Positions 1 through 48,900 of a stretch of DNA of 59,608 nucleotides are shown here, one piece after another (positions within the stretch are counted from its first letter, which is position 1; each line of letters opens with the position of its first letter). The position numbers and the translations under genes were made by a program. The notes beneath the pieces were generated by a model, which worked only from the letters and a program-made list of their open reading frames with translations, did no database searches and was not told where the DNA came from. The stretch covers positions 1,599,890 to 1,659,497 of the forward strand of contig FN649727.1 of assembly GCA_000310025.1 (NCBI GenBank), read 5' to 3'. This stretch comes from Ectocarpus siliculosus (taxonomy: Eukaryota; Sar; Phaeophyceae; Ectocarpales; Ectocarpaceae).

Positions 1-2991
1 CATCCCCATGGCACTTAGTAGGTGTCCGTGTCTCACGTGCTTGGCCCAGATGTCCCCGATGCGCATCTGCTTGCAGATAGTCCCGAGCTGCATCCCCGAT
101 AGCTCGATGGGCCACTCGTAGTCAACAGGCACCTAACAATAAATATAGAGATGTGGAGCACAGGAAAAAAAAAAAAAACATCACTACTGTTGTAGGAGAT
201 GAGCAGGAAGACAGGTGTAGGTCGTACAAAAATATGACTAGAAAACCATCGCTATTATAGTGGATCCTGGCTTCTGATCTATGCATGAGAGACTAGCATG
301 CATCGATTCTGTGCTTACCGTGAAAGCAATCAAACAACAGGCGCTTTCAACGAGGAATCACAAATTCAGTTTGACTCAAAGCCCGTCGGCCCGACGTATT
401 CTTGAACGCGCCTTGTTCTCCACGGAACGTGTTGGCTTCGTTGAAAGCGCCGCCTGCAGCGGCGCTTTCAACAAAGTCAACACGTTCCGTGGAAGACCAA
501 AGCACGTTCAAAAATACATCAGGTCGACGGGCTTCAAGTCAAGTCAACCTGCAAAAAATAACTCCTTGCTGCACCACCACCATCGCGAGACCTACAGCAG
601 TACCACCATCCCAGGAAAGAAACCACGGGCGCCCCAACAACCCGGTCCGCACGAACGAGCCAATCAACGTCACCCGCACCTGGAAGTCGTCATCTGGGAG
701 TTCCCCGTACAAGGTCTTGTAGAGGGTAAGGCCGGCCACGACGTCGTCCCACCGGAACCCATCTCCGAACTCGTCCCACTCGAAACCTACCTCGAGGATC
801 CTTTCCCGGTCCTCGTCGGTGCACCATTCCAACGATGACCCGGCCTGGAGGGCGACGTACGAGGGGACGATTAATTTTAGAAGGGAGGCGTTTGTCGTTG
901 ATGTGTACTATGTGGTCGTGCTCTTTCTACTGTTCATTTCATTGGGGGTTTTCCCGGTCCTCGTCTGTGGTGCACCATGCCAACGATGACCCGGCCTGGA
1001 GGGCGAGGTACGAGGGGATGACATATTTTAGAACGGAGGCGTTTATCGTTCATGTGTTATGTGTGGCCGTGCTCTTTCTACTGTCCATTTCATTGGGGGT
1101 TTTCCCGGTCCTCGTCTGTGCACCATTCCAAGGGGGAGCCAGCCTGGAGGGCGAGGTACGAGGGGACGATTAACTAAAGAACGGGGGCGTGTCTCGTAGT
1201 ATAGTGTGTGGCCGTGCTCTTTCTACTGTTAATTTCCTTGGGATTGTTGCCGGCCGGTCCTCGTCTGTGGTACACCATTCCAAGGAAAAGCCGGATTGGA
1301 GGGGAAGGGACGTGTTCGAAGGGAGGCATTTTTGGGTGTACTGTAGGTGATTTGTTGTTTTGTGACCGTGCTCCTACTACTATTCATTTTCTTTGAGAGA
1401 GAGTTGTTGTTGTTCGATATATTGGGATGGTGATGTTGTTTCGGGGGATGGGGGATGGGGGCTTGGGCGCAATTTTAACGCGAGACAAAAAAAGCAATTG
1501 TGAGGACGAGGCACGAGCGGGCACGAGGAAAATGGATACGCAAACTGTACCTTGACGGTTTCAGCGAAAGGGTCAGCCAGCGCGTACTGCTGTACATGAC
1601 CGAGTTTCAGGACGGTCTGTACCCCAAAAGATGCCACGTCAAATCATATCTACCTCCCTGGCCATTGAGCCGCAGCCGCAGCACCCTGCATGACACTCAC
1701 GTTACTATCGTCGACTAGCAATACCCGAGTGACACGCCCATCCGAATCCAGGCATCTCTAGCACCCCTTACCCAATCAACTGACCTCCTCGGATAACGGA
1801 TAACTCAGGAAGCCTCAAAGCGTGACCGACTCACCGTACTACATCCCGGAATGAGCCGTCGCCCCTTCTGCCTGTCGATCATGCCGTCGCTCTCGACTTC
1901 GTCCTCCTCTTCGCCGAGGAAGTCGTCCTCGTCCCTCTCCATGTACTCCCCGTACTCCTCAGGTTCTTTTTTCCTGCCATGCCCATGCCCATGCCCACGA
2001 CGACGACGATGTTCACGGCAACACAAACACACAGACACACACAACACAATGGCATTAAGAACACAAACACATGGTGCAAAATATGGCATTAAGAAGCACT
2101 TCCTGTTTTCAACCGCACTTGGAAAGCGACGTCTTTTCATTGGTCAGCCGGTTAGCGGGGTCGGTGCCAACAAAAAAGACACATACCGCACATCACGGAA
2201 ACAGAACAAACGGGACGAATCACAACAATAGGGGGGTAATGTTGTGCGGGTTGTTCCATAGTTATCTCTTCGCCCGAGGGACCTTACTCTTCCGGTTGTT
2301 TTCTGCTGGTACTGCTGTAGCGTGGTGTTTATGCCGAGCTCTTTAGACGTTGACTTCGGAAAGGTGGAAGTTTGTTGCTGTTGCTGTTTGCTGTTTTCTT
2401 GGTACCAAGGGGGCCTGGAGAACATCGACCGACGCTGTTGCTGAGGGATAAGGATGGTCTTGTTTCTATCTGCTATCTGCTATCATCTGCTATCATCTGT
2501 ATCTGCTATCTGCTGTCATCTGTATCTGCTACTATCTGTATCTGCTCTCTGCTATCTATCATCTGTTATCTGCTCGATACGTTGAGTGTTGCCTGAGAAA
2601 AGAAGCCATACCCGAAAAGCGGCAAAAAGGGCATCCGCACCAATATTGGTCAACACCACACAACACCACAACATCAACGCAACAACGTCGATGGACACAA
2701 TCAACACCCACCGCACCACCAACAGCACAACAACAACAACAACAGCCCCAACAACAACACAACTAACCTCTTGGGGTCCCACTGCAGAGGCGTGAGCACG
2801 CCGGGCAACGTCACCATGTTGGTACCGATCGGCCCGTCCAACGTCGCCGGCTCGTCGTAGCCGCGGGCAAGGTAGCCCAGCTGGGGAATCATCTTCCGCA
2901 CGACGTGAGCCTGGGTGTCGTTCGGCCAGTACCTCAGGTCCGTCTGGTCCGTCGCCAGCCTTCGGTCTTCGTCCGTGAACTCCGTCTTCAT
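1..2991 (-). CDS. Helicase-associated (HA)-like repeat protein, partial at both ends
   Basis: Five consecutive minus-strand exons join in phase: 2991-2768, 1973-1835, 1616-1551, 844-680 and 132-1. Each has an AG acceptor and a GT donor, and the last continues off the left edge. The exon at 2991-2768 encodes a tryptophan/proline-rich segment I do not recognise. The exon at 1973-1835 is very acidic (FLGEEEDEVES). Exon 844-680 has TDEDRERILEVGFEWDEF then LTLYKTLYGELP. Exon 132-1 has WPIELSGMQLG and ends near LLSAMGM. The alternation of 'DEDR..L..GF.W', 'LY..LYG' and 'WP.EL.GM.LG' resembles the helicase-associated-type repeats common in stramenopile genomes (family recall, not searched). No helicase motor motif is visible here. 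The 5' part is lost or hidden at the poly-G block just upstream of 2991. A role in nucleic-acid binding would be inference only. Confidence 0.6.
366..550. repeat. Long near-perfect palindrome (foldback) in an intron
   Basis: Positions 420-452 and 460-492 are inverted copies, with 2 mismatches over 33 bp and a 7-nt loop (cctgcag). The complementarity continues outward with a few mismatches and a one-base gap. The left arm runs from about 366 and the right arm to about 550, each carrying the AAGCCCGTCG block and a TTGAACG block. The structure lies in the intron between exons 844-680 and 132-1 of the HA-like gene. Confidence 0.85.
804..1390. repeat. Tandem ~150-bp repeat carrying a splice acceptor
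   Basis: About four copies of a unit of roughly 150 bp share 'cccggtcctcgtc...tgcacca' and 'cctggagggcga'. The acceptor trinucleotide (minus CAG) recurs at 845-847, 996-998 and 1144-1146, so the spacing is 151 then 148 bp. The lowest copy overlaps the start of the exon at 844-680; the fourth copy is diverged. The duplication therefore copied the intron end plus the first codons of that exon. Confidence 0.8.
2138..2185 (+). repeat. tRNA-head-like dispersed motif, copy 1
   Basis: The sequence 'tggtcagccggttagcg' fits an RNA polymerase III box A / tRNA D-arm. It is followed by 'gggtcggtgccaacaaaaaagacaca'. Closely similar stretches occur at 9571-9621 (minus), 26049-26095 (minus) and 57823-57880 (plus), suggesting fragments of a second SINE family. 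Confidence 0.45.
2462..2580. repeat. TATCTGC-type microsatellite
   Basis: Irregular reiteration of 'tatctgc' and 'tatcatctg' words within the intron between exons 2991-2768 and 1973-1835. Immediately upstream in gene direction (2640-2765) lies a CAACAA/CACCAC-rich stretch. Confidence 0.8.
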
Positions 2992-3044
2992 CTGTCGATT
3001 TAACGTAAATGTAGGGCGGACAGGGGGTCGTGGGTTGCGCTTCG

Positions 3045-3370
3045 GGGGGGGGGGCGGGGAGGTGGGGGGGGGGGGGGGGGGGGGGGGGCGGATTTACGTG
3101 TTTGGGGGGGGGGGGCCCCCCCCCCACCCAAAAAGGGGGGGGGGGGGGGGGGGGGGGGCCCCCCCCCGGGGGCAGGCCCCCCCTGAAAGGGGGGGGGGGG
3201 GGGGGGGGGGGTAAAAAATGAAAACAAAGTTGGGGGGCCGCCCCCCCGGGGGTTAAATGGGGGGGGGCCCAAGGTGGGAATTTTTGGGGGGGGGGGTTGG
3301 GCCCCCACCCGGGGGGGGGGGAAAACCCCCTGAAAAAATTCCCCGGCGGGGGGGGGGGGGGGGGGGAGGG
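3045..3370. other. Poly-G/poly-C block, probable sequence or assembly fault
   Basis: About 325 bp consist almost entirely of G runs up to about 19 long, with islands of C runs and short A/T words. This is unlike the rest of the window, where homopolymers are short. It lies exactly where the intron after transaldolase coding exon 3 should continue, and the following minus-strand exon belongs to an unrelated protein. Read as a low-quality join between two contigs, or a very unusual G-quadruplex tract; the first is more likely. Confidence 0.7.
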
Positions 3371-3405
3371 AACGGGGAGTTGCAGCAGGCGTTGCTTGTC
3401 CTTGC

Positions 3406-5925
3406 CTGGGGCAGCGCGAAGAGGAGGGTCATGTTGCAGGTGATGCCTTCCTTCTGGAGGACCTCGCACGCCTTGATACCCTCCCACGTGCTGGCGATCT
3501 TGATGAGAATGCGAGACTTGTCGACTCCTGTGGGATTTTTTCCAGTTGCGGTGGGAGGGCAGGGGGGGACAAGGTTGGTTCTAGGCCCTCATGCGTGCAA
3601 CCGAGCTCGCAAGTACCTCAAGTCCACGCAATGGAGACGTATTGTACCCGGAAGCGGTTCAGCCCCTACCGCCGCCGCAATGTACATTCCGCCGCCCCCC
3701 CAACAGCGCCTCACCCGCGGCCTCGTAGAGCGAAATGATGTTGCGCGCCCTCGCCAGGGTGGCCTCCGTGTCGAAGCTCAGCCTAGCGTCTACCTCCGTT
3801 GAGACGTAGCCCTTGACCAGCGTGAGGATCTCCACGCCGAAGTTGACGCTGAGCTTGTCCATGGTCTTTGCCACTCGCTCGTCGTCGGTGACGTCTGTTG
3901 GTGTTTTGGTTTGGGAAGCAGACGGACGTACATCGACAGAACCGTTACTTTGTATTTTACAGCGAGGGCGGTCGGTCATATCACGACGGCAGCACGAAGG
4001 CCTGAACACACACAAGGCACATTCATGACAAGTCATTTTGGAACGCGGTGAGGTTGACCACGAGAAGAAAAGTCTTTAGGCTGAATGTTGGATATGGGCG
4101 TGCTTGCAAGCCCGGTCGTCCCGGTGACTACATGTTGGTAACCTCGAAGCCCTTCTAGCGGGCAGTTTGGGCGCTTGACTCTCGGGGTCAGGGGTGTGTG
4201 TCTGTCCTTCTTCTTCTTCGATTTTCGTAGTGTAGGCAAAGCTGATGTTCGTGTGGCACACGTGGAGGAAGGAATCGCTCAACGCTTGTCGCGTGCACGC
4301 TAAAATGAAGTCATGCACCGCGCGGTAGCTTTTCTTGTTGTTCGGTGTAAACCCGGATCGGAGTCCTTCAACTAAAGAGGTGACACAGCCGCACAGCAGT
4401 AGTACGACAGGTAGAGATTGCTAGAGCTCCAAATAGCATAGACTAATGACCGGAATGCAATTTAGCCGCCACATCTGGAATCCGAAACATGACCAACGCT
4501 GCAATATGGTATGCACGAATATGTTGTAGTACGCGCATTCTATATAACAGCATACAACGTCGGTGCGTGAGTGAATTGATCGTATCGGTCTGACGCACGC
4601 GCGGGTCAAGAACATCTACAGCAGAACATGTGCCTATGTGGGTGCTCGAACGTCAGTACTGCTGTCGCTTTCGAAATTGCGTGCGGTATTACAAATTACA
4701 GTATGTGTTCACCTATCGACAGACAGCAGTGCAGGTGAAAAGGTTCGCCCTCTAATATTTAGTCGAGTTGTACAGTAGTAGGCCCTGATAGTGCCGGTAT
4801 GTGTCCAGAGATTGTACCGGACACCGGCTCTACTCAAAGTACAGACCGACTTGGTATTTCAGTTTGTTCGACCCTAAAAGACCGGCACTATACCAGCACC
4901 TGGCACTACCTATTCCACCGACACGGTGGTCTCGTTGGTATCCCCAGAACCTTCTAGAGGTCAGGTCAGGTGTTCGAATCCCGGCGTAAGCGAGTTTTTC
5001 TTGCAAAAGTGAGTTTTTCTCTCGCTTCCGCTCCTGGTCTAGTGGATATCACTAGTTCGTGTGCACACAGAGGGAAGAGAGTGCTGAACTCTGCTCGCAT
5101 TAAAAATCGAAGGCAAAGTACCGCAGGAGGGGAGGGTAGAGAGGGGCTCTTCTGTGTGACCACAAGTTGGAGTAAACGGTGCAAGTGCTGTGAGCGCTGA
5201 TGTGAAGTATGCTGTCTGGGAAATCGTAGACATACAGGTACTTTCTGACGCTATGAATTCATTGCTAATCTGTCTCAGACTCTTTTCTATGATAGAGATG
5301 GATTCGTTGTGTCATATTAAGAAAAAAAAATAAAAAAAATAAATACAGGGCCCACGGTGCGCAGCCCACACGGTACCAAAGCCGGTACAATGGCCTAAAT
5401 TTGCCGAAAAGACCAAACACCTTTCATGATCCCGTACAGGGCACGTCGAGGTAAAAATGCGAAGTCCACAATGACAGCATATCTTCAGAAGGACTGGGTG
5501 TGAGCTACATGGAGAGATCCGACACAGACAGGCGTGGTTTGGTGCATGCTGCCTCTGCAAGCAGACCTGCGCCTCAACGAGCAGTCGGCAAATTGAACTT
5601 GAAAACAACCCGCGGTGCCTTCCCATCACCGCAATCACCAAACTCCCCTTCTCTCGCGACCACGACTAGCTCGTCGCAAAGCACGGCCACACACGCCGCA
5701 CGAACCTTTGAGAGCTTTCCCGTAGGCGAGGGCATCGTTCACGAGGTCCTGGTGCTCAGGGGCAGACGATGCCTTGTACAGGAGGGACGGGTTGGTCGTA
5801 GCGTCTGTCGGGGCAAATTTCTTGATCTGGGCGATCTCTCCGGTGTCGGCCACAATCTTGGTCACCTCGGCCAGCTGCTCGTACTGCGTGAGTACCTTCT
5901 GCTTCTTGGTCGTGGGCTCAGCCAT
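3406..5925 (-). CDS. TAL: Transaldolase, N-terminal half (3' part missing)
   Basis: Transaldolase moves a dihydroxyacetone unit between sedoheptulose-7-phosphate and glyceraldehyde-3-phosphate in the non-oxidative pentose phosphate pathway. Exons 5925-5706, 3894-3715 and 3527-3406 join in phase to give 174 residues. ATG at 5925 begins [10 protein letters not shown]. Visible landmarks are [10 protein letters not shown] with the conserved Asp41, the [12 protein letters not shown] block, and [12 protein letters not shown] with the Schiff-base Lys143. The third exon ends LLFALPQ before a GC donor (gcaagg) in the right phase; a GC-AG intron would be needed. Family members are about 320-335 residues, so roughly the last 150 are absent; the coding end is not found before the poly-G block. 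Intron 1 (3895-5705) contains SINE copy A. Identity is certain; the truncation is probably an assembly effect rather than a pseudogene, because the exons present are intact. Confidence 0.93.
4915..5205 (+). mobile_element. tRNA-derived SINE, copy A
   Basis: The head reads as a tRNA: box A-like 'ggtctcgttggtatcc' at about 4927-4942 and box B-like 'tgttcgaatcc' at about 4971-4981, ending in 'ggcgtaagc'. After 'gagtttttct' a second tRNA-like module starts with 'ctggtctagtggatatc'. The body continues to 'gtgagcgctgatgtgaag'. It aligns by eye with copies at 43656-43985 and 53950-54200. No clear poly(A) is left on this copy. It lies antisense in transaldolase intron 1. Confidence 0.8.
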
Positions 5926-27504: not shown

Positions 27505-28000
27505 CCATGGAGCACCCATGAGCAGCCCATGGGCCGAGGTCTTGTACATTTTCGCACTTTTCCATGGAACGGTTCATGGAAGCCCATGGAAGTCCATGAA
27601 AAATTCCAAGGAAGTCCATGGAAGTTCATGGAATTGCCATCGAATTCCATTAGCTTCCATGGACTTCCATGGACTTCCATGGGCTTCGACGGAACTACAT
27701 GGAATGTCATGAGCGTCCATGGACTTCCATGAAAATGTCATGGACCTCCAAGAAACGTTTAATGGAAGTATTCCATTAGGTGTCATGGAACGTTTCATGA
27801 TAACATTCCATGGACGTTCATGACAGGGGTTCATGAGCGCCCATGAACGTTCACGGAATTTGTCATGGAACTCCTCTGTGGACGTCCATGGAATGTTTCA
27901 CGGACTTCCATGAGCGCCCATGGGATATTTCATGGAGGTCCACTGAACGTTTCATGAAAGTCCATGGAAGTCCATGAAATTCCATGAAAAGACCACCGCG
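27505..28000. repeat. CCATGGA decamer array A
   Basis: Dozens of palindromic words of the type tccatgga/cttccatgaa follow one another, most often at 10-bp spacing (for example 27655-27690). The left border 'cttgtacattttcgcacttttccatggaa' at 27541-27569 is almost identical to the border of array B at 33342-33370, which suggests a defined repeat family. Confidence 0.9.
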
Positions 28001-29000
28001 CACTGTCAATCCGGAAAAACTTGACAAATTTTGTGCTTGGAGGAAAAACTTCTAGCTCGTAGGCAAAAGGATATTTCTTCACCCGTTTTTTTTTTGTTTT
28101 GTTCGCGGGGACCTGAAGCCGCGCTCAACCCCAATGTTTTATGTTTTTGCCGTGCTACAATAATATTTCGACGTAGACCCCCGGTAAGCACGGGGTCTTC
28201 GAAGAGAGACATCAGACACGGAACCCCCATCGATTGGACACGTTCCTTCCACCCAAACAAATGTTCTTGTAATCTAACAGTTGTTCTCGCCGTTTTCGGA
28301 GCAGCGCGCAGAACCAACCGAGGAGCCATTCCAGCTCACCAACAAAGGTTAGTAGCATTCGAAGGATTTGTCGTTTTAAGAATAGAGGAGTGGAGTTAGC
28401 AATTGGGGAAGTCGAGTTACCGTTAGGATCGGCGTGGAGGCCTGCGCACGTACGCTCCCTTGTTGTATCCCCTCATAAGCTACAATTCCAACATGAAGTG
28501 TTCGTTGTTGGTGGTTTGGCATCTCGCTCGTTGATACTCGTTTACAGGCAGCGGTTATGTCCGGAGGCTGGTGTGTAGCCTACAAGCAGAGGATAACACT
28601 ACAAAGTGCCGTTGCAGCTCGGCGTGTCTCGGGACAAAGAGATCTAGAAAATGTCCGCTGTTACTGACTGATCGGGACCCAGTTTGCATAGATGGTGATG
28701 ATGATGAGTGACCACAATAATATGGGGAAGGTGCGCGCTTGTGCTCAACTCAAAACAACAGACAAAAATAAAACAATTCTACATGACCCCCGGATCTCCA
28801 CCGAATTGTTGGGGGTTTCCACGAAGGCATCGAATGTATTAGTTAGGTAGGGCTGCTTAATTCCCGACCCACTTGAGAGCGGAAACGTCCGTTGGACGGA
28901 CGTGCTAAATAGCCAGCCACGTTCCCTGAAGGTGACCTTAACTGCAGAAGAAGGAAGCTGTCCGCCCGGATAATAGATCATGCAGTTACGGCGTCTTCGA
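28001..29000. other. Interval without a recognisable gene
   Basis: Between CCATGGA array A and the first retrotransposon motif I find no exon or domain. Part of it is probably the 5' region of the retrotransposon, but no terminal repeat or gag-like frame could be placed. Confidence 0.5.
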
Positions 29001-29044
29001 AGGGCTACGTTATTCGCACACTTCGCAAACGACGGGCGGAACGG

Positions 29045-32000
29045 ATGACCTGTTTCTGGGAGCAGGTCATTCTCCGAGACCATTCTAACCAGCGCCGTCT
29101 GGTGCCCTGCTTTCGAGAAGGAGGAGACCTCCGGGACTTCCTTCGGAAGCCCTACCGCAGCCCTTCCGATGGTCTCTCGTATAGGCCGGAGCGCTTCCCG
29201 GGAGCTACGGTTTCCAACCGCATCCCCCCCAAGTTCGTAAGTTTCGTCGCGCGGGAAATGCAAACGCTTGTGGACCGCGGTTGCGTCGTCAAGTGGGACG
29301 GCGTGCGCGCCCCGGGGGGGGCGGCCCGGCCGCGCCTGGTTATGGCGCTATCGGTGGAGGAAACCAGACCGCGCATGATTTACGATGGTCGGCCGCTCAA
29401 CGCACGTCTTGACCCCCCTGCTTTCTCCATGGATACGGTGGCCCGGGTTGCTAACGTTGCCGCGGAAGGATGCTGCATGACCTCCCTCGACGATTCGAGT
29501 GCTTTCCACCACATCCTCATGTACCCCTCGTCTTGGTCGTTGCTCGTTTTTGAGCATGGCGGGGTTCTCTACCGCTGGTGCGTGCTCCCCTTTGGGCTCT
29601 TTGTGAGTCCGTGGTGCTGCCATGTGCTGAGCGATGCGAAGGCGGCCTTCCTTCGCTCCTTAGGATCCCGGCCCTGGCGTACTTGGACGGTTTGTGGCAG
29701 AGCAATCCGGTGGCTACGCAGGGCCTGCCGGCGCGGGTGCAGTGGACCGCTGCGGACGAGGCCACCCACCGCGGAATGCGAGAGTCTTTCCTGTGCGGCC
29801 ACTTCCTGTCTCTGCACAAGTGCGACCTCCGGCTGACTACGGTGCAGCCATACCTCGGTATCCTGTGTGATTCCGGCACGGCCTCGTTCCGCATCCCCAA
29901 GGACAAGCTAGACAAGTTGCACTCTCTGATTCGCGCCGCCCTTGATGACATATGGCTGTCGTTCCGCACCCTGCAGCGCATCGCGGTTAAATGGATGAGC
30001 TTGGCGGTCATGATTCGTCCGGCGTCCCTGAGGACCCGCGCCCTCTTCCAGGCAATCACGGCGATGGATAGGTCAGGAGTGAGCGGAATCGACCTCCGCC
30101 GGGACCTGCATGCCGATTTAGGGGGAGAGCTCCGACATTGGTTGGGCATCGCGTCTACCACTCACGAGGGGCCGTGGCAGCGAGCTCGCCACTTCTGCCC
30201 TCGCCGGAGGCGCTTCCGATGCGTCGTCGGTGGGGTGGGGCGGCGTCGTCTACGCCGCGGACGGGCCGTTCAGGGTGGGGGCGGTTTTCCCGCCGGATTG
30301 GCTCTCGAAACACATCAACCAGAAGGAGATGTACGCCTTGTATCACATGCCGCGGTAGTACTGCGAGCGCCATCCGGAGGCCGTACGCCGCGCCCAAGTT
30401 CTGATTGACGTTGATAACCAGTCGGTAGTCGGCACGTTCGCCCGAGGGCGCACCAAGAACGGCGAAACCCACGCCCTGCTAGTTCAGTTGTTTGACCTGT
30501 ATGTACAGTAGGTTTCCTCTTGTCACTCAAGTGGGTTCCCACCGACCGAAATGGGTTTGTAGACGCCATTTCGCGGCCATCCCGGGACTCGATCGTCCGT
30601 CTAGCTACCGTCGCCGTCCGCGTCTTGTGGGAGGCCCTTGGCCCGTCCAACGTGGATCTGATGGCGTGTAGCGCGTCGGCCCAGCTTTCGCCGGCCTCCG
30701 GCTCCCCTTTGCCGTTTTTCTCGCACTTTGACGGCCCGGGTTCTGCGGGCGTGGATGTGCTAGCGCAAAACGTTGTCGTAGTCCCTGGAACGCCTTTGGT
30801 CTCTGTTTCCCGCCACCTGTGGTGGTCGGCCACGTGGTTCAGCACCTCGCCGAGTGTAAAGCTCGCGCGGTGGTGGTTGTCTCCTACAGGAAGGAGTACT
30901 GGTTTCCGTTGGTGCGCCACGCCGTGGTAAACCGTCGAGAGGTAGTTTTTCATCGGCCTAGTGCGGATGGTTCGCTGCGGCCACAGCGGTATTATTGTTG
31001 GGTGATGACGGGGTACGAAGTCGATTTTCGGCGGTAAGGTCATCATCGGGGAGTGCCATCCCCGGGTGTTATGATTGGGTGATATTGTTTATATATTTAT
31101 TTAATTCCGGGCCCTGCTTTTCGTTCCTCCGTGCCGCGTTGGTGATGCCCCGCAGCCGTCGGCGGTTTCGACGACCTTTGCCCCAGTCTCGTGCACAGTC
31201 TGTCGGGTGGTTACCCGTGGCGCTTAGAAAGTCTGTTTGTCGTGTGGTACCCCGCCGGAGCGGGGGCGCCCGGTCCCTCGGCGTGCTCATGTTTCCCCTC
31301 TTCCAGTTGACCTCCCCAACCTGCGGGAACGGCGCGAGTATGTCCTCACCAAGATGGCGAGCCGGCCGGGGCAACAACCCAAGTCCCGGGTTGCGAATGA
31401 GTCGGACTCCTTTGTTCTAGCCGTTTCAGACCGCCGCCAGGGCTGGAAAACCGCCACTGATTCAGATATTCTCGATTGGTGTTTCTACCTTGACTCGCAA
31501 GAGAACGGCACTACCCTCGTACACGGTGCGTCGTGCCCCAACGTGGGGTCAGCGACGAAGGTGGGCTGCTCTGCGGGGTCCGGATGCGCCACCAGGTATG
31601 CGGCGGGCTCACTGCACAAACGTTTTGTGTCCAAGCTCAACATGGCCATGAGGGAGCAGTTGGAGAAAGTGGAGGCGTACGACCCGGCTAGCAACTTGGG
31701 CAACCCTTTCGTTGGCGCCCTCTCGTCTCTTTATATGTTGCGTTCGTCACCGAGGAACGCCACAAGGTGGGGGTGTCCGTGAAACAGGCGGCGCCAATGT
31801 TGGTGCACACGTTGGAGAAGCTGCTGCTGAGTATGCGCACGCGAGTGGAACTCGCCGGTTCGCCGGGTGCGTCTATCACTATAACGCGGGACGTTGCTCT
31901 CTACGCCCTGGCGTTCCACACCACGCGGCACGGTTTCGACTTGTCGTTCGCCAAGGGCCCCCAGGTTATGCGGCTGCCCGCGCCCGCGGGCTTGGTCTTC

Positions 32001-32150
32001 AGCGTCATGTTTGGCAAGTGCTTGCGATCGTCCACGGACGCAGTCGTAGTCCCTCCTGACACCCCGAATCCCAAAACTTGCGCGGTTCTCGCCGTTAAGG
32101 AGTACATCGCGGCCGCCAACGAGGTAGGATGGGACCTACAGGCGGGTTGA
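29045..32150 (+). mobile_element. Decayed tyrosine-recombinase (DIRS/Ngaro-like) retrotransposon
   Basis: Coding blocks occur in the order reverse transcriptase, RNase H, tyrosine recombinase, which is the DIRS-order layout. RT: RPRMIYDGRPLNARL, then MTSLDDSSAFHHI, LPFGLFVSPWCCH, and after a frame change ALAYLDGLW, where the expected second catalytic Asp is Gly. RNase H (from 30182, another frame): DASSVGWGGVVY, QKEMYAL, LIDVDNQSVV, with an in-frame TAG at 30357-30359. Then LKWVPTDRNGFVDAISRP. The recombinase part (about 31331-32150) has RYAAGSLHKRFVSKL, a frame change near 31730, then RDVALYALAFHTTRHGFDL and GWDLQAG. The expected C-terminal HxxR and Tyr box is not found. At least three frameshifts plus a stop make it non-autonomous. 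No long terminal repeats were recognised. Confidence 0.8.
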
Positions 32151-32483
32151 AAATTCCGTGGTCGCCTCCGTGCGGGTGGTGCGTTGCCATTTATTATACG
32201 CTGTTATTCTCCTGCGGTCTTTCGTCATGATGTACAATGTCGTCCGGGTCTGCTATGGACATCCACGCAGGCCGGGGTCTCCTTTTCTGGCGATGTATCA
32301 AGTGAACCCAATCTCTTTGTGGTAAGGCACTATTTTCGATGTATCGTCACCAAAGCAATTGCCTACGTTTCATACTCAGAGGTTTCCAGCACGTCCCATT
32401 CACACTTACGTACACCAGAAGAGTGACCTACCAGGAGGGTGTGCAGGAGGGAAATGTACGCGGCTGCGACAAAGTAGACATTT

Positions 32484-32526
32484 CACGATACAATAGTAGC
32501 TTGTGAAACTACTCTTTCGTATCGTG
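32484..32526. repeat. Hairpin-forming inverted repeat
   Basis: CACGATAC (484-491) pairs with GTATCGTG (519-526), and inside it AGTAG (495-499) pairs with CTACT (509-513). It lies about 330 bp past the last recombinase codon and could be an element end or a transcriptional hairpin. Confidence 0.7.
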
Positions 32527-33340
32527 TACAGTATCTATATTTTTCTGTTTCTCTCATCGTCGATGTTGGACACCAAATGCCCATGTTCGCCATTCCCACC
32601 CCGCGCACCAACATCAGGTTTCATTTCGCGACGCACACGGAGCCGGCATGTTTGGGGCAACTGTAATCCGGAGAGACGAGACGACCCTGTCCTGTGGGAG
32701 GTCGACGAAGCTTGACAAGAGCGGTTCCTCTGGAACTCGGCTATCGCCGCAAGCAGCAAAACGTGTTCCCCTCCGCACTGGGGCCTATCATTAAGAGAAT
32801 GCCCCGCGTGCTCGGTACTTTCTGCTTGTTCACGAACGAACGTGGTCGTGCACAACGAGTTGCTGTTGGCCGAGAAGCACCCACTTTTCCGTTGAGGAAC
32901 GATTGGCCATGTTGTTCGGTGTACCAGGTACATATCTTTCCGTGGACAATATGTCAAGACGTGTACCAGCGATGTCACTGCCGTTGTTCACCAATCCACC
33001 GTTGCATGTCCCGTAAAGACCTGTGGCAAGGTGATGATGTTGCATTATTGTCCGGCACGATTGTTGCAACACCAGATTCTTATGTAGTTACAATATTAAT
33101 ATTCTGGACTAAAGTACATGCATTCGGCACTACCTGTGGTTGTCAGCGTGCGAGAGGTGCAACGATAGGAATCATGTAACGGGGGTTGTTGTTGTGTGCG
33201 GCTGATGTTTGTTTATGTATTCGATCTTTGATGTCCGTTCCTGCGTGGCATGTTCCGGGCTGCATGGTTCGCAGTATTGTACCGTGGTTGGTTCGAGACT
33301 GTCTGTCTTCCTTATTTGCAACAGCCACACGTAGTCCGGG
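32527..33340. other. Interval without a recognisable gene
   Basis: No exon, domain or repeat could be supported between the hairpin at 32484-32526 and CCATGGA array B. One plus-strand open frame (32694-33179) has no recognisable motif. Confidence 0.5.
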
Positions 33341-33341
33341 G

Positions 33342-33805
33342 CTTGTACATTTTCGTACTTTTCCATGGAAAGTTTCAAGGAAGTCCATGGACTTCCATGA
33401 AACGTTCCATGGAAGTCCATGAAAAATTTCAAGGAAGACCATGGATTTCCATGAAGAAATTCCATGGAACTTCCATGGGCTTCCATGGAATTCCATGGAC
33501 TTCCATGAAACTTCCATGGAAATCCATGGAAATCCATGGAATGCCATAGAAATCCATTAAAATTTTCACGACATTCCGTGAAAAGTTCCATGGATGTCCA
33601 TGACATTTTCGTCATGAAACTTTCCATGAAAAAAATTCAGTCCTTGCCATAAAACATTTCATGGAAAAAATTCATGGACGTTCATGAAGTATTTGATGAA
33701 AGCCCATGGACGTCCATGAAATGTTCCATGAACGCCCATGAAATGTTCCATGAACGCCCATGAAATGTTTCATGAACGTCCATGGAATATTTCATGGAAT
33801 TCCAA
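33342..33805. repeat. CCATGGA decamer array B
   Basis: Same word family as array A, with runs at 10-bp spacing such as 33467-33540. The left border 'cttgtacattttcgtacttttccatggaa' matches array A with a single difference. The right side decays into catgaaatgttccatgaacgccc repeats. Confidence 0.9.
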
Positions 33806-34455
33806 ATTCTGGAACACCAAATTCGTATACCGGTTGATGGGGGCGTTTATAATGCAGAAGCACACAAGGAGGATGCATACCAAGACTGAGAGAATGTGTG
33901 CAGTAAAAAAAAAAAAGGAGTGTGGCTGCTAGCTAGCATGAAAGGGTACATCCTTATGTTCATAGGATGCGGGATGGTCAGGAGGTATTCCTTCTTGTAC
34001 ACATACCCCCCCTTAGAATTGTCTACTCTGTGTGCCCCCTGAGATAAAGTTGGATCCCGACTTCACATCTCAGATCCTTGCTGATCGTCTCTCAGCAATA
34101 CCAAGCAACTCTCCCATCTCTACGTGGCCGTGGACAAGAGTGTCAACGACGGAACCTTCATCTACCTCGAGGAGCAAGCTATCGTCTACGGCTTAACTCC
34201 TTGTAAATGGTTTAGGACAACGATGAGGTTGTTCAAGATCACGTAACATTGCATTCGTCATGGGGGCGTGTTGAAATGCAGCGCATTACTTCGGTAGGAT
34301 GTGTGTGTGTGTGATAGAATGTAGAATAGATGCAGCTGCATGATTGCTGTATGCCATGATACGTAGATGCTGTGTGATAAATGACGTTTTGTACAGTAGA
34401 ACGTAACACGGTGTCATTAACGAATTGATGGTTTACCAGATGATTGTAATTGTAG
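33806..34455. other. Spacer between decamer arrays B and C
   Basis: Nothing coding was recognised. It contains an A12 run near 33906 and a GT run near 34302. Confidence 0.5.
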
Positions 34456-34462
34456 CGAAATG

Positions 34463-35167
34463 TGGAACGTTTCATGGACTTCCGCGGAAATTTTCATGGA
34501 AGTTCATGGAGCTCCATGGAACTTTTCATAAAACCCCTTGGACTTTCATGAAACAGTTCATGGCATTTCATGGAACTCCTTGGACTTCCATATAATACTT
34601 CATGAAGAGTTTCATGGAAGTCCATGAACTTCCATGAAAAGTCCCATGGAGCTCCATGGACCTTCCATAAACATTTTCATGGAACTCCTTGGACTTCCAT
34701 GAAATTTTTCATGGCATTCCAAGGAGTTCCATGAAAAATTTTATGAAAGTGAAGGAGTTTCATGAAAAGATTCATTGAAGTCCATGGAGCTCCGTGAGAA
34801 CAAGTAAAACGTTTCTTGGAAGTCCAATGAAGCCCATGCGCACATTCATGGACATCAATGTCCAACACAGCCTAGGCTCATTGTCGGCATTTATCCACCA
34901 AGTCGGCGTTACTGGAATATTTCTAGAACGTCCATGAAATGTTTCATAGACTTCCATGATGAAATATTTCATGGACTTCCATGGGCTTCCATGGATATGG
35001 TGTCATTGAGTCTCATGGACTTCCATGAAAATTTTCGTTTTTTCCATGGACTTCCATTGACTTCCATCCATGGACTTCCATGAAACACTTCATGGAAGTC
35101 AATGGAAGTCCATGGACTGGTTCCATGGAAATCCATGGAACACCATGGACTTCCATGAAATATTTCA
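34463..35167. repeat. CCATGGA decamer array C
   Basis: A third, longer and more degenerate array of tccatggactt/catgaaa words, interrupted at about 34855-34925 by unique sequence. It lacks the cttgtacattttcg border shared by arrays A and B. Confidence 0.88.
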
Positions 35168-42900: not shown

Positions 42901-45900
42901 CGTTCTGTTTTGTTATCGGCGCGCGGGGGGTAGGGGAGGAGGAGCCACGCGTTGGTGCACGTAGGTACAGCGAGTGTGCATGCGAGCACAATCGCTACAC
43001 ATGACCAGGGAAGTTTAGATTCTACCGAAGGCCGTGGCGAACGGGCCCACACACCTTTTCCCCGATGAGCATTCCCCGCGTGACGGCTACAAGGTCCACT
43101 GGGCGTAGTCTACACCATGACTTCTCCGCATTCTCTTACAGACCACTTGCACCGACCGAGCCGAGAAGACTGAACCGAACGTATGTGCTTACAGTCATGG
43201 TTCCGTTCAGGAGAGGGTGGTGTGACAACGACCCTCGACCCTCTTATATCCGCACACCCTCTTATATCGGTATTTTTGGGTACTCTCTTATATCTGGGTC
43301 CTCCACAGCGGGGTACCCTCAAATAAATTTAAAATCGGGAATAACCTGAAACGCATCCAGCGCATTGTTAAGAGTCAGGATGCCTCTATACATATGCGTG
43401 TGCGGTGGACTGTATATGTGCGCGTGGTGAACTGGTCGAGCGGATCAGCATGCCCATAGCAACTGGGCGATTGCTTGTGATCGTGTTGGAAACACTTTTT
43501 TCGTTTTGGTGCCAATTTCGATTCAAGGAGTATTAACACCTTGAAGCACGGAAAATATGCCGCTTCAGCCATTGATGTGAGGCATATTACATGCACATGC
43601 AGTCAAACGCTTAAAAGCACCGAGACAACAAGGGAAAGCAACGCGCGAACCCAACATGTTTTTTTTTTTCTTTTCTTTTTTGTCTTCACTTCAAATCAGC
43701 GCTCACAGCACTAGTGCCGTTTACTCGAACCCGTGGTCACACAGAAGACCCCCTCTCTACCCTCCCCTCCTGCGGTGCTTTGCCTTCGATTTAAATGCGA
43801 GAAGAGTTCAGCACTCTCTTCCCTCTGTGTACACACGAACTAGCGCTATCCACTAGGCCAGGAGCGGAAGCGAGAGGAAAACTCACTTTGCAAGAAAAGC
43901 TCGCTTACGCCGGGATTCGAACCCCTGACCGGACCTCTAGAAGGTTTCGAGGATACCAACTAGCCCACCTGGGCGACAGGTTGCTCCGGGTGTTGCAAAG
44001 CCTCGACCACCTCCCCCGACCATGAAAAAAATATATTTTCTTGTACACGGGCAACAACTATCTGCCGCACAACAAGAAAGACCAGCCTCCGCATGCCGTA
44101 CACTTGCAATTCACTGCTGCCGTGCCACAGAGTCGGGCCTGTATGAGCACACGCATTGCCTACACTCAAAAGAAGTATCATCTGATGTCTGCCTGCCGTG
44201 GTGTTTAGAAACGGCATGCTGAGATGAAGGGCATTCTAGCCTCCCTTGCGCCAAAGACCTGCGCTTCTACATTGCCAGACGACCCCGCGAAGTACTCCGG
44301 AGGGCCACAAAATGAACATACTGCAGTGCAGCGTACGGTGGGGGCCGCCCGGCGCAATCATCGCCGTCGTCGTTGTCGCGTAGCTCTAGCTCGTCGTCGG
44401 AAGGGTTGGCCTCCTAGCAGCACATCAATTACCACATCGTACCACCACCTCCGCGACATCATGTTATCAATATACTCACAGGATGGTCGGTGTGCCGCGA
44501 CACATTTCGTACTACTAGCATGGAAAAAAACAATAATGGTACAAATAGCTCGATTTTTTTTTGGTTGCGGCAGTATGGACCAGACACCGGAGAACGATTG
44601 CCTACGGCGACGACCATGACTGGATGGGATACCTCCTGCGACGGCGAACCATACTTCAATGCTGGAGATACAGCAGTGGGATTCTCGTGTTGTTGAAGGA
44701 AGTCTGCCTGCAACAAGAGAGGACAGTGTTCTATGTAGTATTATTTCACACCCTGTACAAATACATTATTTGGTATTTGTCTGGCAGGCAAATACTTTCT
44801 TGAGAACCTGCACAAATATTTGCCTGTAGGCAAATACTTTCTTGAGAACCTGCGCAAATATTTGCCTTCAGGCAAATGCTTTCTTGAGAACCTGCGCAAA
44901 TATTTGTCTGTAGGCAAATACTTTCTTGAGAACCTGCGCAAATATTTGTCTGCAGGCAAATACTTTCTGGAGAACCTGCGCAAATATTTGTCTAGAGGCA
45001 AATACTCTCTTGAGAACCTGCACAAATATTTGCCTGTAGGCAAATACTCTCCTGAGAACCTGCACAAATATTTGCCTGCAGGCAAATACTCTCCTGAGAA
45101 CCTGCGCAAATATTTGTCTGTAGGCAAATACTCTCCTGAGAACCTGCGCAAATATTTGTCTGTAGGCAAATACTTTATCGAGAACCTGCGCAAATACTAT
45201 TGTATTTGTCCTGACAAATATTTTGAAAAAAACAGCTGGTACTGCGGGGAGAGTCGGAGGGAGAGACTAGCCGCATGTCATGCATGCGATGGGAGATTGG
45301 TCTCGGAAATACAGAAGCCCATCGCTGAAGCGTGCATCTGAAATATCCGTTGATCGGGGTGGAAAAAAACAGGATCAATCTACAACAGCCACGCACGGCC
45401 ACACTCGCCGACGCCACAACCCCTCCACCATCTCACTCATTCCGTATCGTTGGATGATGAGTCAACTCCTGTGGCAAAAAACAAGAAAAATCAAGGGCCC
45501 AAAAACACCAATTGATATTTATTTGCGGCTGCAAATACACCGGGCTCAACGGTCTCATTTGTGCATACGTACTTACTTGTAGGCCGAAGAGGTCAATATC
45601 TCCGCATGCGCAAATACATTTGTCTGCAGGCAAATACTTTCTTGAGAACCTGCGTAAATATTTGTCTGCAGGCAAATACTTCCTTGAGAACCTGCACAAA
45701 TATTTGCCTGTAGGCAAATACTTCCTTGAGAACCTGCGCAAATATTTGCCTGCAGGCAAATGCTTTCTTGAGAACCTGCGCAAATATTTGCCTGCAGGCA
45801 AATACTTTCTTGAGAACCTACGCAAATATTTGTCTGCAGGCAAATACTCTCCTGAGAACCTGCACAAATATTTGCCTGCAGGCAAATACTCTCCTGAGAA

Positions 45901-48900
45901 CCTGCGCAAATATTTGTCTGGAGGCAAATACTGCCCTGGACAAATACACGCAACTATTATTTGTATTTGTTATTTGTATTTGTACAGGGTGTGGTAGTAT
46001 TACACCTGGCGTGTTTAGGTTTGGAGCTTTGTGGCGGGAAAACTTGACGCGCTCGCCACCCGACCTGCTGCCCTCGGCTGTGTGCTGTGCATGCAAGTAC
46101 CAAACACTCCTACCGGTGATTGTGTGTCGATTGGAGTCTTTGAGGGCGACATGCAGCTGGCGGGGTATTCAAAGGCTATGTACCCACACCAGTGCGGCAG
46201 AGGTTGGGGAGGCAGCTGCTAATTTTAACTTCCCCTCCACCAACCACAGCTGCACCAACTACTTGCATGCTACCTGCAATACCCCTAATTGGTTTGCGCT
46301 AGGCCCACAAGAACGGCTGACGTGTACGGTATGCCTCAATGGTCGATGCTGTCAATCATTTGCGAAGTGTGCCGGCCTTTAGGGTAGGTCTTAACGAAGA
46401 AATCAGATTACGAAATCACATTCAGATTTGGTTATAAGACCGGAATATCCTAAGAACTCTCTTGTTGATTGGCTGAAAAGTTATGGAACCCGTCGAATCT
46501 TTAGGGCTTAAAACAAGACGACCCAAAACCAAATCGGGATTTGAAAAAAGGTGAAATGATTTAATCGGATCCCGATTTGGGTGAGCCGCAACCAAAGTTG
46601 CGGGACCACGGTCTACTCGCATGCACGGCGCGTGCCCACCTACCCCCATCCGCACGAACTCCATCCACCGCCGAGCACAGAGGAGAGAGAGAGCACAAAA
46701 AGCCAACCCAAAGGGAGGGTGACTGCGCATCGTTGTTGCACGTGACTGGCGCCGAAAAAAAACGTGTGTGGGATGTGTTGGTCTGTGGGGCAATCTCCCA
46801 TGGGTTGTCGAACCTCAAATGCTCAGACGAATTGGTGGCTTTCCGTCGGACGAGGCTCTATTCAAAGTCTCACATACATACCGTATACGACACAAGATAT
46901 CACACCCACGTAAGATAAGACACCCCCCACAGAATACCACACCCGGTACTAATATTTTTTTATCTCAAACGAAGAGCCAAAATACCACCCGGGTTACATA
47001 AGATAATACACCCCCAGAGGTAGGCCGCATGTAATCACGGAGCCCCCACTAATATCACCCCGGTGATGAACAAGCACCAGCGGTCGCTGATCACCCACAG
47101 GATGGCTCAACAGGGAGCACACCCAACACACCCTCTGGGTACGGGGCAACCGCCCCGGATGGAGACCTCCAGTGACATGAACGTGCAGGGAGAGCAGAAT
47201 ACCACTGCAGCTATATCTGCTCGTTCGGCAGCTGTTTCGACCGCAGCAGTGGCTCGCCCGATAACCTCCTTCCGTCAAGGCGAGCAAGGGTCTACACCTG
47301 CTGCTCCTCTCGCTGCTCCTGCTGCCGCTTCTGTAGCTGCGGCTGACAAAGCTGACACAGCAACGAGCGCCAAATGGGGCAGCCACCACGCTGGCTCAGC
47401 AGCCTGCTGCTGAATTACACGAAGGTGCTGATGATGCAGAAGAGTCTATGCGCACCAGTCAAGCCTCAGACGAGGACGAGGGGGACAGAAGCCCAGCGAT
47501 GCCGTCCTTCTTACTTAGCGGTTAGACCCAGGGCGGGGGGTAATGAATGGAAGCTTGAGCTTCCGCCTCGCAGCGCATTGATCGTGGATTCTTAAATGCA
47601 TGCAACTCAGCTTGTTTTCTTCCCCGCCTTCTCGGAATATTCTCTATGGTGCCAGGCGGTAGTGATATAATATATATATATTTGCATGGCAACGCATTCG
47701 CTGTAGTTGATGAGGGCGCTGTTGGCGTTCATCACCGGGATCATGTGATCAGGAGGTGTACCTCGTCCCCGGTTATCACCCCTGCCCACGTAGCACACGT
47801 ACCAAATACGGTAGTTACTTGCGGGCAGTGGTATCACACCCGCTACACGTGCGGCAGCAGGCACCAGCACACCCCTTTCGTTTCCACACCCCTTCGGCGG
47901 CCCCCTAGTGTGCGGCAGTGGTATCACATCCCCTGAATATCAAACCTATGGTTATCACACCCTCTGGATATCACACCCCTTTGCTACCACACCCCTTTTC
48001 GGTCCCTGCAAGTGTATGGCAGGGCCCTGGATGTCACCCCCCCTTCATGGCTCCAACGGCCGCACTTTATCACCCGGGCTACATAAGATATCACATCCCC
48101 CACAGAATACACCTTTCCGGTGATAATGTTTTTATACGCCAAAATGTCATCCCCGGGGTGTGATTTCTTGTGTCGTATACGGTAGACATCGTGTCAGTAC
48201 CGCACAGAGGCCATGTTACGCGTTTGGTGTGTGCTTCTCGGGAGCGATAGCTCCCCATGTGGTGTGGCCACGTCATAACAGTACGTCACAACAGCAATCT
48301 GGCGGTCGGCAAGCGGCGGACCTCTCGGTTTTTCGGGGTGGACTGCAGAGATTCGTTTCCATTTGGCAGATCTCCCAGGAAGACAAACAGGCCATTTCTG
48401 TCCGGATTTCGGTAGATCCGACTCTTTTATCCTTATATCGAAATGTGATTTCTTCGTCAAGACCTACCCTTATCATGGAAGAAGCGCGTGACTGAACGTG
48501 TAGGTTGCGCAGGAAATTGTTTTTGGGGGGGACTCTATTTTCTAGATAAAAAATATCGAGGGTACGCCATTTTCTAGTGAAACGACGGTCGACGACGACC
48601 AAATCTGTCTGTAATATAATTAAAATGATTTCATCACTGCTTTTTTTCTGTTCCGTCAATCTAGGCGACCGCTATCAATTCCACCCTGTGCCCTCTCGCT
48701 CATCGCGAACGGCTTCACGTCTTCATCGCGTCTCCATACACGGTCCCTTGTTGCCACTCCTGACAACGTGTCTTCCTTCTTCTTATTCTTAACTTCCTCC
48801 CAAACCCTCGCCGTCACCCATCTCGGTGTGGCCACCCGCCCCATTGGGGGGCGGGGGGTCAATCCTTAAGCCTACTACTGTAAGTACATGCATATTCGTG

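Follow-up and report, generated by a model that had tools for sequence, protein, structure and literature searches.

Transposons with terminal inverted repeats (TIRs) and internal tandem repeats are already known. Tetris and other foldback elements of Drosophila virilis (PMC4079207) are non-autonomous, TIR-bounded elements with internal tandem repeats, a variable non-coding middle, 8–10 bp duplications and probable mobilisation by an unknown autonomous element. Galileo of the P superfamily (PMC4168063) makes 7–8 bp duplications, has tandem repeats in some copies, and forms two subfamilies per genome. Here, we investigated a 1,247-bp element at positions 44747–45993 of a 59,608-nucleotide stretch of Ectocarpus siliculosus DNA (contig FN649727.1, positions 1,599,890 to 1,659,497; the whole stretch is called the window), together with its relatives in the 189 Mb genome. 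This family is like Tetris and Galileo in the features just listed. However, the Tetris repeats are ~220 bp and lie inside long inverted TIRs (PMC4079207), and those of Galileo extend its inverted TIRs (PMC4168063), whereas the window family has direct 42-bp arrays and short TIRs. What is new is the direct arrays of 42-bp dyad units that share a half-site with the TIR, plus a coupled switch of one letter in both. CACTA/EnSpm elements resemble the family in their CAC..GTG ends and in a short motif that is repeated many times close to each end, and their subterminal repeats are binding sites for TNPA. They differ in a target duplication of 2–4 bp (3 bp in PMC12730594), against 8 bp here, and in that the family carries a 42-bp direct dyad array.

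Our literature search covered running text and found no report of the family, nor of its end sequence as text; the Ectocarpus transposable element library may hold some of the ends. Such elements can drop out during annotation. In one published Ectocarpus pipeline, transposable element families with more than 60% tandem-repeat overlap are moved to the tandem repeats (PMC12477816), and the arrays make up 60.06% of the window copy according to Tandem Repeats Finder (TRF); the family may or may not have been affected.

Direct reading of the sequence confirmed that the window element ends in perfect 19-bp TIRs, as a first-pass annotation of this DNA had stated, and TRF together with unit orientation likewise supported its description of two same-orientation 42-bp arrays flanking a unique core (Table 1). 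That annotation had placed the start at 44744, giving 1,250 bp; this is 3 bases too early, as copies with clean duplications have the duplication abutting CAC. A check for an internal transposase found no open reading frame (ORF) of at least 250 amino acids in the window copy, whose core is 410 bp. The view of the locus as a coherent non-autonomous TIR transposon held up, given its relatives, their target duplications and the recent copies described below.

The 14-base family end, CACACCCTGTACAA, has 77 exact matches in the genome, compared with 3 for the reversed pattern. A gapped version of the end pattern gave 13 matches (control, 1), and the sole end that it added to the exact list, C10:3101843, has no partner. 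A unit pattern gave 37 matches and its control none. Short TIRs were found as inverted pairs at several loci, and by our count three sets of loci hold about 34 elements with two recognisable ends (22 + 11 + 1), some diverged ones being uncertain. Other copies with the ends of the window element therefore exist, which removes the possibility that it stands alone. A genome search with the 1,250-bp query found three further long copies, on C26 (95% identity), C30 (94%) and C12 (88%), plus shorter ones, and the window core is 99.5, 98.8 and 95.4% identical to those of the three long copies. The window core had no match to the core pieces of L007, L016, L019, L023, L024 or L031. The two ends of an element are not equivalent, and A-end and B-end types each recur across several subfamilies, as judged by eye. 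A sister group of 1.7-kb elements comprises four copies that are 99–100% identical and carry four different 8-bp duplications (L017, L019, L060/61 and L062/63); near-identity at four different targets shows that the family transposed recently.

Two relatives showed unusual internal stretches when inspected by eye. The core of L016 at ~680–1010 resembles an insertion into the array; a T run marks one of its ends and a tRNA-like stretch (GGGACTCGAACTCATGAC) the opposite one, and it is possibly a short interspersed element. L019 has an internal stretch at ~660–750 like a decayed B-end, as if the 1.7-kb element derived from two fused or nested elements. L004 (C4) and L005 (C21) are one insertion, lying in reverse orientation between flanks that match over the 25 bases compared per side, and so probably reflect a segmental duplication.

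Since L005 is the same insertion as L004, the 34 two-ended elements represent 33 independent insertions. The family target duplication is 8 bp, perfect and directly abutting the TIR in 16 of these 33, where the chance of one perfect 8-mer duplication is ~1.6e-5. Four more are off by one base (L024, L031, L038 and L072) and three by two bases (L007, L036 and L066); some diverged ends were paired using the duplication itself, so the matches of L031, L036 and L038 are partly selected. The remaining ten, namely the window copy, L002, L008, L011, L030, L054, L068, L076, L078 and L100, have no positional match. The 16 perfect duplications give the consensus nAnnnTTn; 15 of them have A at position 2, and 15 have T at position 7. 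A side check of the target logo used 23 single-end flanks, left and right mixed, for which insertion is not proven. The first-pass annotation had read a 9-bp duplication at the window copy, and this was not borne out. Its left side has the order GTAGTATT-ATTT-TIR and its right side TIR-GTAGTATT. This is best taken as an 8-bp duplication with four extra bases, ATTT, before the left TIR, which makes the ninth matching base a chance match. The A-end of the C30 copy (L002) is likewise preceded by 4 extra bases, immediately to the left of position 201 (by eye), and the extra bases of both are absent in copies with clean duplications.

Across subfamilies, the repeat unit is CAAMTAKTTG-N18-TAKTTG-N8, 42 bp in all. 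It presents the half-site CAAMTA as a 10-bp dyad, CAAMTAKTTG, and as a spaced dyad, TAKTTG-8-CAAMTA. The units are palindromic, as the first-pass annotation had stated. Of 32 regions entered in the unit analysis, 31 contained units (L034 had none), and 159 of 213 successive unit spacings were exactly 42 bp. Two groups, that of the window and that of L015/L017, supplied 141 of the 159; the other 18 came from L007, L008, L018, L036, L048, L050 and L054. In all 12 elements tested, the array before the core points the same way as the one after it, and the other strand lacks the unit spacer, so these are not foldback TIRs, in which tandem repeats form the long inverted ends.

In the TIRs, the conserved end TGTA leads into this half-site too, whose variable letter M (A or C) largely agrees between TIR and array. 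Elements with CAAATA TIRs carry CAAATA arrays, and those with CAACTA TIRs mostly CAACTA; the TIR letter matches the commoner internal word in 21 of 22 two-ended elements, counting related copies singly, and L030 is a tie. We then asked which unit columns split 13 representatives classed by TIR letter alone. The best were columns 4, 31 and 7 (balanced accuracy 1.00, 0.93 and 0.92), all of them the switch base of half-sites, followed by column 40 at 0.86. Label shuffles, which ignore relatedness, gave three columns at or above 0.92 in 0 of 2000 and at least one in 72 of 2000. Elements with one to three poor units (L006, L031, L033, L037, L038 and L039) had been omitted by eye from the unit distances and quartets, while L011, L024, L047, L048, L049 (a single unit) and L051 were kept though they also have one to three units. 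A rerun with 18 rows, none dropped for poor units, restored all of the omitted elements but L033, whose TIR has T and hence no class. The same three columns led, at 0.90, 0.90 and 0.89 (next, 0.75); shuffles matched the best column in 28 of 2000 and the third in none. Of the five restored rows (L006, L031, L037, L038 and L039), four do not fit at one or two of these columns; L031 fails at two. Over the first 50 bases of the A-end, the window copy and L016 differ at 4 of 4 half-site switch bases and at 4 of 46 others (hypergeometric p 3e-4), the half-site positions having been named after the alignment was seen.

The letter classes do not follow the 26 non-motif columns of the unit. On this measure, the closest units to that of the window (A) are of the L015 type (C), while the distance from L018 (A) to L036 (C) equals that to L007 (A). 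In four quartets built on the 26 columns, the classes were not monophyletic in 97.8, 98.6, 98.9 and 99.8% of 2000 resamplings, two of the quartets using L048 or L050, whose TIR letter is unreadable and which were classed by their arrays and left out of the 13 representatives. The switch therefore looks repeated, and these comparisons point to at least two coordinated switches, or to an exchange of whole modules.

On balance, we favour the reading that the 42-bp arrays are subterminal binding sites of the family transposase, much like those of CACTA elements, rewritten together with the TIR, in a non-autonomous cut-and-paste transposon. A cut-and-paste transposase with an 8-bp target duplication and a preference for nAnnnTTn would move the family, and the 42-bp units would be its docking sites, offering CAAMTA as two dyads. 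With a period of 42 bp (~4 helical turns at 10.5 bp per turn), all sites would look to the same side of the helix, and the uniform orientation of the units would make the protein–DNA complex directional. Arrays may lengthen and shorten by unequal exchange, with unrelated cores sitting within them. When binding specificity shifts at one half-site base (A to C or C to A), the TIRs and arrays of a lineage would change together. If the arrays are docking sites, their letters record a co-change of a transposase and its DNA sites, and, if this is true, one genome holds both versions side by side, which makes the switch testable. We propose only tentatively, and regard as rather doubtful, the stronger version in which there were at least two coordinated changes of transposase specificity, with end core and architecture preserved throughout, and in which the direct, polar array offers many docking sites and thereby determines the handedness of the transposition complex.

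Several observations weigh against the docking-site reading. Small diverged arrays deviate from 42 bp, with spacings of 41, 43 and 85 in L032, 43 in L047, and 43 and 46 in L051. In L017, L019 and L023, CACCTA/TAGGTG outnumbers CAACTA despite CAACTA TIRs, and the units of L031 are mixed. In eight related elements with arrays chosen by their spacer, the motif is kept better than the spacer in all eight but significantly in one (one-sided p 0.014–0.60). Together, the CACCTA words, the L031 units and the weak motif conservation suggest that some half-sites are unconstrained or that the arrays are partly passive. Array homogenisation and common descent explain part of the letter coupling, and the quartets are limited by their 26 columns and, in two cases, by an unreadable TIR letter. 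All two-ended elements seen are at most 2.5 kb, the longest being L007 at 2,465 bp, and no transposase with the family ends was recognised when pairs were sought by eye, over distances of up to tens of kb, among the ends listed.

Part of this evidence suits a competing account, which we think rather improbable but take seriously, in which part of the end region of an ordinary miniature inverted-repeat transposable element was amplified by slippage and unequal exchange, leaving functionless arrays whose shared letter reflects descent and homogenisation. The units do share a word with the ends, their number is variable, small arrays drift to 41–46 bp, L004 and L015 are almost wholly array, and the motif is not significantly better kept than the spacer in seven of the eight elements. 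However, even units with as many as 17 differences over the 26 non-motif positions share the 42-bp spacing, the largest difference being that between the window unit and the 42-bp-spaced L008 unit. Passive amplification also fits poorly with the best columns for the TIR letter being half-site positions, and with letter classes that do not track the non-motif columns.

It is unlikely that the arrays instead bind a host factor or form hairpins, acting in silencing, nucleosome phasing or excision at replication time and not through the transposase. A 42-bp unit would suit a phased array, and all four array pieces examined as single-stranded DNA fold better than all 200 shuffles (z −3.5 to −6.7). 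The ladder of hairpins suggested by the first-pass annotation is thus possible in single-stranded DNA. Hairpins or host factors leave unexplained the change of the same base in the TIR and both dyads, and paired binding sites look palindromic too. The presence of this half-site in the TIR as well, and the joint change of the two, suggest that a DNA-binding protein recognises paired half-sites.

For the superfamily of the presumed transposase, our first guess is KDZ, based on the 8-bp duplication and the CA..TG ends. The two features are given for different KDZ lineages in PMC12730594: Zisupton and Dileera have 8-bp duplications, and Kyakuja has CA..TG ends, 7-bp duplications and no TIRs. Giant KDZ elements have been reported in Ectocarpus (PMC12477816). 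Genome searches with the profiles PF18758 (KDZ) and PF21787 (P-type transposase) each gave 0 matches, but their controls were likewise silent, so both are uninformative. An 8-bp duplication is also found in Sola-1. It fits hAT as well, for which the duplication consensus is nTnnnnAn; the A at position 2 and T at position 7 seen here are the reverse of that preference. Among 20 hAT places listed, six were read, and their sole exact family end (L044) is that of the 1.7-kb element next to it, facing away from the hAT gene. A hAT domain at C476:1106596–1106796 lies 760 bp from a 1.7-kb element, probably by chance, as comparison by eye placed none of the other hAT places listed close to an end on the list.

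Mutator-like elements (MULEs) have duplications of 9–11 bp. Although GTAGTATTA flanks the window copy on both sides and MULE domains exist in the genome, a Mutator-like origin with a 9-bp duplication is highly improbable. The family duplication is 8 bp, and a comparison by eye of at least 45 MULE places with the listed ends, MULE flanks not fetched, showed no pair less than 50 kb apart; the Mutator-like partner with the same ends that had been suggested is thus not supported. Of 45 listed MULE matches, 26 share one score, 52.4 bits, suggesting that a single MULE family expanded in a recent burst.

We also searched incomplete loci for a transposase. None was recognised in the 1.6–9 kb read at single-ended loci. 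A degenerate partner end with a matching duplication was sought at 30 loci and gave one short candidate, L053, which is 231 bp long and has an exact duplication and mismatches at 8 of its 14 end letters, plus a chance match in the nested element of L021. ORFs above 150–180 amino acids were listed, and ten of them, from nine loci of which L024 alone is two-ended, were compared with Pfam; this subset gave one weak ABC2_membrane match. Three ORFs of L021 were run separately. L021 (C71), which lacks a right TIR, holds at 575–4808 a Tc1/mariner-like element inside the array of a CAACTA-type member, 4,234 bp including both TA, with a DDE_1 match (E 2.4e-18) and, in a separate frame, an EsV_1_7_cys match (E 9.4e-9). 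We dropped its DDE_1 transposase, the sole transposase recognised within a member, as the source of the family, as it belongs to the nested element, which has its own TIRs and TA duplication. TcMar-2_Ec32 is a described 4.4-kb element whose transposase has an N-terminal EsV-1-7 domain (PMC12477816).

Table 1. Parts of the window element and its flanks (window coordinates)
Feature	Position	Strand	Basis or remark
Left target duplication, 8 bp, GTAGTATT	44735..44742	+	Direct reading; 8 bp as elsewhere in the family
ATTT, four extra bases separating the duplication from the left TIR	44743..44746	+	By eye
Left TIR (A-end), CACACCCTGTACAAATACA	44747..44765	+	Sequence comparison of ends
First 42-bp array, 10 units; unit in − strand sense CAAATATTTG-18-TATTTG-8	44774..45196	-	TRF 10.0 copies, 92%; unit and orientation analysis
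Unique core, 410 bp	45197..45606	.	Core comparison
Second 42-bp array, 7.7 units, oriented like the first	45607..45932	-	TRF 7.7 copies, 91%; orientation analysis
B-end subterminal stretch	45933..45974	.	More CAAATA-type half-sites and the sole TAGTTG-type site of the window copy
Right TIR (B-end), inverted left TIR, likewise reading CACACCCTGTACAAATACA	45975..45993	-	Sequence comparison of ends
Right target duplication, 8 bp, GTAGTATT	45994..46001	+	Direct reading

Elsewhere in the window, TRF found several arrays of ~10-bp palindromic units of the CCATGGAA kind at 27561–35157. At 28913–29836 lies an open frame whose match to reverse transcriptase (RVT_1, E 4.7e-5) is weak and falls under the cut-off.

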